Positions 3,333 through 23,847 of a stretch of 25,186 nucleotides of DNA are shown one piece after another. The position numbers and the translations under genes are program-made. The notes below the pieces were generated by a model. The model was not told the DNA's origin and made no database searches. It worked only from the letters and a program-made list of their open reading frames with translations. This DNA comes from a virus. Where the stretch lies: the IMG/VR virus record IMGVR_UViG_3300048928_000637, positions 1-25,186 of that record. One strand, written 5' to 3'. Positions within the stretch are counted from its first letter, which is position 1. Every line of letters begins with the position of its first letter.

Positions 3333-5405
3333 GTGGCGGATCAAATTCAAACGCTGCTCGTCTCGCTTGAAGCTCGAATCGCGGGCTACGAGAGAGAAAT
3401 GAAGCGCGCCGTCGGGATTGCGAACAGGAACGCAAACTCGATCGAGACCCGGTTCAGGACCATGAACCGCAATATTTCCAACACGATGAACGGCGTCAGC
3501 CGGACGATCGGCGCGGCATTTGCAGGCGTCGCTGCCCTTCAGGGTGCCCAGTCGCTGATCGATGCCTCGGTTCGCATCGAGAACAGTCTGAAGGTTGCCG
3601 GGCTTGCGGGTGAGGATCTCGCACAAGTCTATGACAGCTTGCGCGATTCAGCGCTTCGAAATGCGGCCCCATTTGAAAGTCTGGTCGATCTTTACGGGCG
3701 CGTAGCGCTCGTGCAGAAAGAGCTAGGCGTTTCAAGCGAGGACCTCACAGGTTTTGCTGACAACGTGGCCCTTGCGCTGCGCGTCTCCGGGCAGTCTGCA
3801 TCCGAGGCAAGTGGTGCACTCCTACAGTTTAGCCAGGCTCTTGGCTCCGGCGTTGTGCGCGCCGAAGAGTTCAACTCCATTCTGGAGGGCGCACCAACCA
3901 TCCTGCAGGCGGCGGCGGCCGGCATTGTTGAGGCGGAGGGCTCCGTAGCCAAACTCCGCGCCATCATGTTGGAGGGCAATCTATCTTCCAAAGCACTCTT
4001 TGATGGCTTCGCTGCCGGATCCGTCATCCTCGAGGAGAAGGTCGCTGGTTCGACGCTCACCGTCTCTCAGGGCTTTGAAAACCTCAATACCCAGTTGATT
4101 GATGTTGCTCGCCGATTCAACGAGTCGGCTGGCGTTAGCGCGCTACTGAACGACGAGCTTAAGTCACTTGGGCAGGGCGTCCAAGATTTGGCGATCTTCT
4201 TGGAAAATATCGTTGGGCCGGTGCAGACATTTGTCGGCAGCATCCAAACCGGCATCGACAAGGTCCAGGAACTTTCAAGCGCCATCGCCCAGATTACTGG
4301 TCTTGAGCGTATTGGCTTTGATGCCGCGATAACGACCAACAACCTTACAGGTGGAGTTGGGCTTTCCGCCAATAGCAGCGCCGCCGGACGAGTGCTGGAC
4401 CAGACATTCGAACTCGTAGGTGCGACGCCGCAGGACGAGGCCCTCGCTGCCATTATGGCAGGAAAGGCCGAGCCAGAACCACTGAAAATTGTGGTCGAGG
4501 GCTCCAATCCGATCAGCATCAAAGATCCACAATACAAGCCTCCCGCCGGTTCAGGCGGCAAGGGCGGTTCCAAGCAAACCCCGGCCGAAAAGTTCGACGA
4601 CGCACTCAAAAAGCAGGCAGAAGAAAACCGCCTGCTCGCCGAAAAGACTGCGCTCCAGGCGACGCTGAATCCGTTGGTCAACGACTACGACTCGGCGCTG
4701 ACCAAGCTACAGGTCACGCAAGAATTGCAGTCGGCTGCCACGGCCGCCGGCATTGCTATGACTCCGGAACTCGCCGCAACGATCGAAGACCTCGCCACCG
4801 GCTACGCCACGGCGACAGTTGAAGCAGCAAAGCTGGCCGAGGCGCAGGAAAATGCGCGCGAGTCCATGCGAACCTGGTTCGATCTGGGCAAGTCCGCAAC
4901 ACGCGGATTTATCGACGATCTGGTCGAGGGCAAAGACGCGGCCGAAGCGCTCGGGAATGTCTTCAACAAGCTCGGCGACCAGCTTCTGGACATGGGCCTA
5001 TCTGCTCTCTTCGGTGGCGGTGCAGGCGGCGGTTTCGGCCTGATTGGCAAGGCGTTTGGCTTTGCTGGCGGCGGATATACCGGCAACGGCGGCAAGTATG
5101 AGCCAGCCGGCGTCGTGCACCGTGGTGAGTACGTTTTCACCAAAGAGCAAACGGCGAAACTTGGCGCCGGCAACCTTGCCGCGCTCGCCAAGGGGTACGC
5201 CAACGGCGGTCTCGTCGGTGCTCCCGCTCCCATGTCACGCGCCGCGAACGACAACGTCAGCGTGCCGGTCAGCATCTCAATCGATGCTCGAGGTGCTGAT
5301 GCCGGCGGCCTTGCCCGAGTGGAGCAGCGGCTGGCGGCTCTGCAAGCAGAACTCCCTGGCCAAGTAAAGAACATCGTCCGCACGAAGGGCACGAAATGGA
5401 GGTGA
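3333..5405 (+). CDS. Tape measure protein
   Basis: A 690-aa protein. The frame is open from 3093, but residues before 3333 are the shadow of the minus-strand gene. The GTG at 3333 has GAGAGG seven bases upstream and begins VADQIQTLLVSLEARIAGYE, a natural tape-measure start. Residues about 55-250 form the tape-measure domain: AAFAGVAALQGAQSLIDAS, FESLVDLYGRV, LGSGVVRAEEFNSILEGAPT, ISKALFDGF-like, TLTVSQGFENLNTQL. A charged coiled-coil stretch lies around 420-520. The C-terminus has the usual glycine-rich F.GGGYTG.GG..EPAGVVHRGEYVF segment. It sets tail length; 690 residues suggests a relatively short siphovirus tail. The protein ends GTKWR, and the same 12-bp junction sequence recurs after the next gene. 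Confidence 0.93.
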   Translation: MADQIQTLLVSLEARIAGYEREMKRAVGIANRNANSIETRFRTMNRNISNTMNGVSRTIGAAFAGVAALQGAQSLIDASVRIENSLKVAGLAGEDLAQVYDSLRDSALRNAAPFESLVDLYGRVALVQKELGVSSEDLTGFADNVALALRVSGQSASEASGALLQFSQALGSGVVRAEEFNSILEGAPTILQAAAAGIVEAEGSVAKLRAIMLEGNLSSKALFDGFAAGSVILEEKVAGSTLTVSQGFENLNTQLIDVARRFNESAGVSALLNDELKSLGQGVQDLAIFLENIVGPVQTFVGSIQTGIDKVQELSSAIAQITGLERIGFDAAITTNNLTGGVGLSANSSAAGRVLDQTFELVGATPQDEALAAIMAGKAEPEPLKIVVEGSNPISIKDPQYKPPAGSGGKGGSKQTPAEKFDDALKKQAEENRLLAEKTALQATLNPLVNDYDSALTKLQVTQELQSAATAAGIAMTPELAATIEDLATGYATATVEAAKLAEAQENARESMRTWFDLGKSATRGFIDDLVEGKDAAEALGNVFNKLGDQLLDMGLSALFGGGAGGGFGLIGKAFGFAGGGYTGNGGKYEPAGVVHRGEYVFTKEQTAKLGAGNLAALAKGYANGGLVGAPAPMSRAANDNVSVPVSISIDARGADAGGLARVEQRLAALQAELPGQVKNIVRTKGTKWR

Positions 5406-23430: not shown

Positions 23431-23436
23431 TGGGCG

Positions 23437-23455
23437 TAGCAACCCGGACCAGTGA
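23437..23455 (+). repeat. Strand A: TAGCAAC...CCAGTGA
   Basis: TAGCAAC (23437-23443) and CCAGTGA (23449-23455) are complementary to GTTGCTA (23631-23637) and TCACTGG (23621-23627) of strand B, giving 14 pairs in two blocks. The same two blocks recur in direct orientation as strand C. The preceding CG is also shared with C. Confidence 0.75.
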
Positions 23456-23462
23456 AGCAAGC

Positions 23463-23542
23463 AACCCTTGGCGGGGTTCCCTTGCTTAAGCGTGAGAGCC
23501 TTGGCGGGCTCAAGAGCGCTAGGCATGCGACTTGGCGGTCGC
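23463..23542 (+). repeat. Three tandem hairpins with identical loop and covarying stems
   Basis: CTTGGCGG occurs at 23467-23474, 23500-23507 and 23531-23538, spaced 33 and 31 bp. Each copy is centred in a perfect 5-bp inverted repeat of different sequence. The loop is conserved in sequence and the stems only in pairing, the signature of selection on RNA (or extruded DNA) structure and not on primary sequence. Confidence 0.8.
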
Positions 23543-23620
23543 TGCACTTCGGTAGACCTTATACCGGGGGCGGTGCGCCATGTCCAAGAGAATCTTTCTC
23601 TAAAAGCACGCCGGCTTGTC

Positions 23621-23637
23621 TCACTGGCAAGTTGCTA
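23621..23637 (+). repeat. Strand B: complement of both A and C
   Basis: TCACTGG-CAA-GTTGCTA can pair with A upstream (7 + 7 bp) or with C downstream (8 + 6 bp, adding C23620 with G23694). The two pairings use the same bases and so exclude each other. Confidence 0.75.
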
Positions 23638-23672
23638 ACCCCCGGTTCCGGTCCTGTCGACCGGCCTGGCCG

Positions 23673-23694
23673 TAGCAAGCCATTCACCAGTGAG
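23673..23694 (+). repeat. Strand C: second copy of TAGCAA...CCAGTGA
   Basis: TAGCAA (23673-23678) and CCAGTGAG (23687-23694) repeat strand A in direct orientation and pair with B, enclosing the CCGGTC/GACCGG hairpin. C lies 10 bases before the ATG at 23704 and includes GTGAG, a possible ribosome-binding site. B:C pairing could therefore hide the start of that gene. Confidence 0.7.
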
Positions 23695-23703
23695 CCTGAT
23701 TAA

Positions 23704-23847
23704 ATGAACATCGAGAAAACACCGCCGCCACTTTGCGTCGAGTACGTCGCGGAGCTGTACGTCCGTCCGCGCAATGGAGGGCCGCCGACCAGTCGCGGCG
23801 CGGTCACCGTGCGCCACGAAGTCCCAGCACAACTGTTGGCGGCATAG
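23704..23847 (+). CDS. Small protein downstream of the structured RNA
   Basis: A 47-aa frame starting MNIEKTPPPLCVEYVAELYV, then PRNGGPPTSRGAVTVRHEVP and AQLLAA. The only visible RBS is GTGAG (23690-23694), which is part of RNA strand C. The product is a short mixed protein with one Cys and no membrane segment. I recognise no family. It fills the space between the structured RNA and the hairpin before 23904. Codon use is GC-rich at third positions like its neighbours, which supports it. It may be the gene controlled by the A/B/C switch. Confidence 0.5.
   Translation: MNIEKTPPPLCVEYVAELYVRPRNGGPPTSRGAVTVRHEVPAQLLAA

Follow-up and report, generated by a model that had tools for sequence, protein, structure and literature searches.

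What does a phage do with one loop sequence displayed on three unrelated stems? The window (the whole stretch of DNA that was analyzed, an IMG/VR virus record of 25,186 bases) carries the word TTGGCG at 23468-23473, 23501-23506, and 23532-23537. Each copy forms the loop of a hairpin with an upper stem of 5 bp, all three upper stems being different, and with a lower stem beyond an internal loop or bulge (Table 1). The loops are spaced 33 and 31 bases apart. The preliminary description had placed these hairpins at 23463-23542 and judged them improbable by chance; its coordinates, stems, and spacing are all exact, and 0 of 300 first-order Markov simulations of the window contained a same-loop triple (at least five Watson-Crick pairs each, a 6-nt loop, within 110 nt), compared with one in the real sequence. 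TTGGCG is a frequent word in the window overall (52 observed, 25 expected), and among its 34 plus-strand occurrences the only 5-bp stem outside the array is at 4188.

We find that the array belongs to a larger element, 23432-23703, which reaches up to an ATG at 23704. From the layout of this element and its relatives, we consider it very likely that the hairpins are part of the leader transcript of a phage antisense regulator of the C4 type. The array had been proposed as an RNA in its own right; it sits instead in a spacer, between an upstream pair of target segments (a1/b1) and a C4-like RNA. The same region had also been described as lacking a credible gene, which holds for the hairpins themselves but not for what follows them, where a small open reading frame (ORF) with a conserved start position opens at 23704. 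The naming of the a and b segments follows phage P1.

Table 1. Features of the predicted C4-type element and of the gene that follows it, in window coordinates.
Feature	Position	Strand	Basis
5′ hairpin GGGC-GTAGCA-ACCC showing target a1 (GTAGCAA, 23436-23442)	23432..23445	+	Matches a1 of phage P1 in place and order
Target b1, CCAGTGA	23449..23455	+	Perfect complement of b′; co-varies; counterpart of b1 of phage P1
UUGGCG hairpin 1 (upper AACCC/GGGTT, lower AAGCAAG/CTTGCTT)	23455..23487	+	Loop and pairing kept family-wide
UUGGCG hairpin 2 (upper GAGCC/GGCTC, lower AGCG/CGCT)	23489..23520	+	Loop and pairing kept family-wide
UUGGCG hairpin 3 (upper GCGAC/GTCGC, lower GCA/TGC)	23523..23545	+	Loop and pairing kept family-wide
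C4-like antisense RNA core, about 84 nt	23563..23646	+	Boundaries by homology
Core helix P1, ACCGGGGG/CCCCCGGT	within 23563..23646	+	Pairs co-vary in 38 sequences
Core helix P2 with hairpin	23587-23601	+	Three-helix fold
Core helix P3, CTTG/CAAG	23615-23618/23628-23631	+	Pairs co-vary in 38 sequences
Antisense b′, TCACTGG, in P3 loop	23621..23627	+	Complementary to b1 and b2
Antisense a′, TTGCTAA, single-stranded, from P3 to the 3′ strand of P1	23632..23638	+	Complementary to a1 and a2
Hairpin CCGGTC/GACCGG, between C4-like core and a2	23648..23664	+	Sequence; equivalent in most relatives
Hairpin GGCC-GTAGCA-AGCC showing target a2 (GTAGCAA, 23672-23678)	23668..23681	+	Duplicate of a1; changes together with a′
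Target b2, CCAGTGAG, purine-rich, Shine-Dalgarno-like	23687..23694	+	Perfect complement of b′
47-aa ORF (MNIEKTPPPLC...), presumed regulated gene	23704..23847	+	Start at the family's near-fixed distance

The core alone folds into the three-helix topology of C4, in which an outer helix P1 encloses two inner hairpins, P2 and P3. This fold is markedly stable (z −3.55), with 0 of 200 shuffles equally stable. The a1 hairpin is a weak fold on its own. In the window, a′ is complementary to a1 and to a2 at six of seven positions, and b2 ends 9 nt before the ATG. The annotated record of phage P1 served as a positive control and presents the same arrangement: promoters, a1, b1, spacer, c4, a2, b2 at the icd ribosome-binding site, icd, and ant. 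The window a2 is the counterpart of the phage P1 a2, and the window b2 matches in position the phage P1 b2 at the icd ribosome-binding site. In c4 of phage P1, as in the window, b is matched by the P3 loop and a by the single strand after it. RNase P releases C4 from a longer precursor by cutting at the 5′ end of P1, and pairing of the two C4 segments with their targets then prevents translation (PMC5320573).

Relatives of the element were sought with two kinds of pattern. A first scan looked in viral contigs for three CTTGGCGG words and returned mostly in-frame coding repeats of Lys/Ala- or Gly-rich proteins. Its sole true relative, L083, has four such hairpins and, downstream of them, a core that matches. 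Core patterns were derived from the core common to the window and L083, and the final pattern, CCGGGRGCGGTGCGCYATG, is free of TTGGCG. With these core patterns, relatives came to light among viral contigs and also in Bradyrhizobium, Tardiphaga, Rhodopseudomonas, Ancylobacter, Hansschlegelia, Methylobacterium, Aurantimonas, Consotaella, Reyranella, and other genomes. Three matches from the first core scan (L128, L130, and L131), together with L187, were chance matches and were dropped. The family set comprises 38 distinct sequences, window included (about 37 relatives). The window core scores 92.5 bits against the covariance model R1, the window being among the model's 38 building sequences.

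The core covariance model, whose E-values are only rough, matches 43 genomes out of 398 sampled from a single order, and well over half of those genomes' matches are weak (36-52 bits). The covariance matches that were read (L224-L237) are compact core relatives with no UUGGCG hairpin array. One genome among them (G237) has five copies, and the upstream a1/b1 pairing is kept in the compact relatives where it was read.

The antisense segments and their targets change together. Across 36 members there are 18 distinct versions of a′ and 21 of b′. On average, members nevertheless match their own targets: the upstream copy pairs at a mean of 6.85 and 6.01 of 7 positions, compared with 4.9 and 4.1 when members are swapped (4.88 for a1 with a′), and the downstream copy at 6.58 and 6.60, compared with 5.2 and 5.4. 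The best of 300 swaps gave 5.4 and 4.5 for the upstream copy and 5.6 and 5.75 for the downstream copy, and none reached the real values. Among members, the downstream target usually overlies a purine-rich, Shine-Dalgarno-like segment. A short subtype (e.g., L127, L144, and L196) has no clear a2/b2 directly downstream. Within the 38 sequences, pairs of P3, hairpin 3, and helix P1 also co-vary; kinship inflates these co-variation counts, an effect lessened by the swapped-member control and by a within-locus TTGGCG control.

This second control concerns the array. We counted TTGGCG words flanked by a stem of at least 4 bp and took the spacer as the 150 nt preceding the core. Such stems accompany 83 of the 90 spacer words, compared with 8 of the 257 words that lie outside the spacer on the corresponding strand of these loci. 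The spacer words sit on 32 distinct 4-bp stems, among which all four Watson-Crick closing pairs occur, and each member has one to four of them. UUGGCG accounts for 76 of the hexaloops counted in relatives and for all three window loops. Hairpin 3 is the least variable of the three among relatives. The conservation of the array is independent of how the relatives were found, because the control is internal to each locus and the search pattern is free of TTGGCG. On this comparative evidence, the array hairpins are real and are conserved in many phages of soil alphaproteobacteria. The idea of a structured RNA with a fixed loop on changing stems is thus borne out in alphaproteobacterial phage and prophage relatives, which retain both the loop and the pairing; loss of the two in relatives was the outcome that the preliminary description had named as refuting it.

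In most members, a start codon lies at core +124 to +140. The first ORFs beginning there are short and diverse, and include helix-turn-helix (HTH) proteins and several families without a Pfam match; the 47-aa ORF of the window likewise has no Pfam match. One first ORF is weakly Rha-like (L147) and another is S24 peptidase-like (L172). We found no Icd or Ant homologues among the regulated ORFs and no ORF family common to most members, the ORFs being mostly unrelated to each other. The largest ORF clusters were contaminated by translated RNA and out-of-frame sequence. If the antisense reading is right, C4-type control stands ahead of many unrelated small genes. Integrase genes follow the element in seven loci, which suggests that the element is often found at the integration end of prophages.

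Among the downstream ORFs of L122, L126, L135, L138, L171, L173, L175, and L177, several are acidic proteins with repeated E-P-S/T-L-G motifs. Others start with M..RPMFPP or belong to a DPIFAAIERH family with a signal-like N terminus.

The window shares much with the C4 RNA of phages P1 and P7 (RF01695). Both have upstream targets, antisense RNA, downstream targets, and an ORF, in that order, with b2 at the ribosome-binding site. In both, one antisense segment occupies the P3 loop and the other the unpaired stretch from P3 to P1, and both have a three-helix core of 77-84 nt, closed by helix P1, with a UUAU-like context before the 5′ end. Among members, the commonest context at the 5′ end of the core is TTATGG; the window has TTATACC. 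In contrast, the window differs from C4 in sequence, in its enlarged P2, in the UUGGCG array of its spacer, and in its next gene, which is not icd/ant. The window branch is alphaproteobacterial, whereas described C4 RNAs come from other proteobacterial orders (PMC5320573). The best C4 match of any relative, 20.9 bits against a gathering threshold of 45, comes from one distant relative, at the same place as its sRNA-Xcc1 match. Because the Rfam model gives no match in the window and no icd/ant antirepressor operon follows, we call the element C4-type and do not file it in RF01695.

More generally, the window has no relevant Rfam match at gathering or permissive thresholds, even at E 10, and two sub-threshold microRNA matches were taken as chance. 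BLASTN of the element region against annotated phages gave nothing, and a tRNA/tmRNA search gave none. Our literature search found no UUGGCG hairpin RNA of such a kind, and nothing linking C4 antisense to alphaproteobacteria. The claim that no described family fits is therefore only partly upheld: the system as a whole is of a described type, C4, but Rfam misses its alphaproteobacterial branch, and the literature searched has no description of the UUGGCG array. C4-type antisense control of phages would thereby extend to alphaproteobacterial, mainly rhizobial, phages that current RNA models miss.

Other C4-related RNAs share single features with the window. In the c4-a1b1 motif, too, a C4 RNA comes after a structured region with upstream targets, but the motif is reported only from gammaproteobacteria and from phages (PMC2864571); the comparison here is by description. 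The C4-like Group 1 sRNAs of Acinetobacter baumannii likewise have a C4 core that is matured from a longer precursor carrying a 5′ leader. Unlike the window element, they occur in many chromosomal copies, and no UUGGCG array is reported for them (PMC5320573).

By analogy with phage P1, the short antisense RNA probably keeps the following gene from being translated. The C4-like RNA would be cut out of the leader and would pair with a2/b2, so that the downstream ORF is not translated. A lytic, antirepressor, or otherwise disruptive gene would thereby be kept silent in lysogens. The a1/b1 copy could capture the same antisense segments in the nascent transcript, and repression might thus be delayed or tuned. 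The most speculative step concerns the hairpins: they may be repeated sites for a phage or host factor that acts on the leader and controls either continuation of the transcript or release of the C4-like RNA. We tentatively propose, as a possibility that falls short of an even chance, that UUGGCG hexaloops are a new class of recognition site, at which a phage or host factor bound to one to four copies decides transcript continuation and release of the C4-like repressor. This would give C4 immunity in alphaproteobacterial phages a second, protein-controlled input. The array adds to C4-type leaders a conserved, repeated loop that is directly testable by pulldown.

Two unlikely alternatives deserve most attention. 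The element might be a purely intramolecular switch, resembling an attenuator or riboswitch, in which the middle strand pairs with either the upstream copy or the ribosome-binding-site copy, the UUGGCG hairpins together with the core act as a sensor domain, and no separate antisense RNA is released. The two target copies do compete for one and the same pair of segments and change in concert, and the long-range upstream pairing is present in the minimum-energy fold of 23431-23700. Against such a switch, a separate antisense RNA of 77 nt is both annotated and known to be made from this architecture in phage P1 (PMC5320573), and the core folds by itself as a closed three-helix unit. An early reading of the element as a stand-alone cis switch was dropped after the phage P1 comparison.

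We give the same low probability to a tertiary contact in which the UUGGCG loops pair with CGCYA in the core (GCGGUGCGCYAUG) and keep the leader inactive before release of the C4-like RNA. CGCCA or CGCUA can make five pairs with UGGCG. Furthermore, outside the seed set, most loop-bearing members keep a CGCYA-like sequence and most loopless members do not. However, we see no compensatory change: L218 and L219 have cores without CGCYA, yet their loops are still UUGGCG. No more than one of the several loops could make the contact at a time, and the P2 stem also accounts for the CGC bases.

The remaining alternatives fare worse than these two. That the TTGGCG words act in DNA, as −35 boxes or operators with the pairing reflecting palindromes, is very improbable: L083 and L125 do have an extra upstream palindromic TTGGCG, 17 bp before CATAAA, that resembles a −35 box, but the spacer stems vary both within a molecule and between members, with only the loop fixed, and the plus strand of the window region has no promoter-like site. 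Slighter still are the prospects of a CsrA/RsmA-type sponge, a comparison raised in the preliminary description that has gained no positive support. Sponges such as CsrB and RsmY, like the window, present several hairpins with a common loop within one RNA; the window loop differs, lacks the GGA that defines CsrA sites, and is tied to an antisense leader having its own cis target. Chance or codon-driven repetition, which the coding repeats of the three-word scan and the high frequency of TTGGCG might have suggested, has a negligible probability: the simulations speak against it, and it is already refuted by the retention of loop and pairing in unrelated phages.

The C4-type reading also bears on a known RNA. 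For distant relatives, the closest core by score is that of sRNA-Xcc1 (RF02221), an integron-borne RNA of Xanthomonas; some compact or distant relatives score 22-33 bits against its model (threshold 53), which gives no match in the window. Like the window, sRNA-Xcc1 has a1/b1 and a2/b2 around its core. It differs in having no UUGGCG array, in the terminator-like hairpin (by scan) of its spacer at L246, and in the SymE toxin ORF downstream. The spacer of phage P1 also holds a hairpin of another kind, which did not pass the terminator scan.

Of 120 genomes sampled from the family around a Xanthomonas genome (G417), 35 carry sRNA-Xcc1, with at most 10 per genome. In the sRNA-Xcc1 loci L246 and L247 (about position 1500), flanking copies of a bipartite target are complementary to the P3 loop and the adjacent strand, and a SymE toxin ORF (PF08845, E about 1e-13 to 1e-14) starts right after b2. 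sRNA-Xcc1 has been placed upstream of symE, with a regulatory mechanism called divergent from that of Escherichia coli symR (PMC12444791). To judge by these sequences, sRNA-Xcc1 looks like a C4-type antisense RNA of SymE, and a C4-type mechanism would explain the divergence from symR. The same logic predicts that sRNA-Xcc1, long known without an established target, acts in cis as an antisense RNA on the SymE toxin gene next to it.

Several loci have further features near the element. Extra palindromic TTGGCG words lie upstream of the a1 hairpin in L083, L125, and L165; in L083 and L125 the extra word may be a −35 box embedded in a palindrome that resembles an operator. The virus record L134 carries the element twice (L134:734-851 and L134:4358-4478), about 3.6 kb apart. 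A few kilobases from the element in L167, an ORF at L167:4445-5578 encodes the C-terminal part of a portal protein fused to an anti-CBASS Acb1 domain. In the window itself, the ORF at 19828-20346 matches sigma-70 region 2 and region 4.
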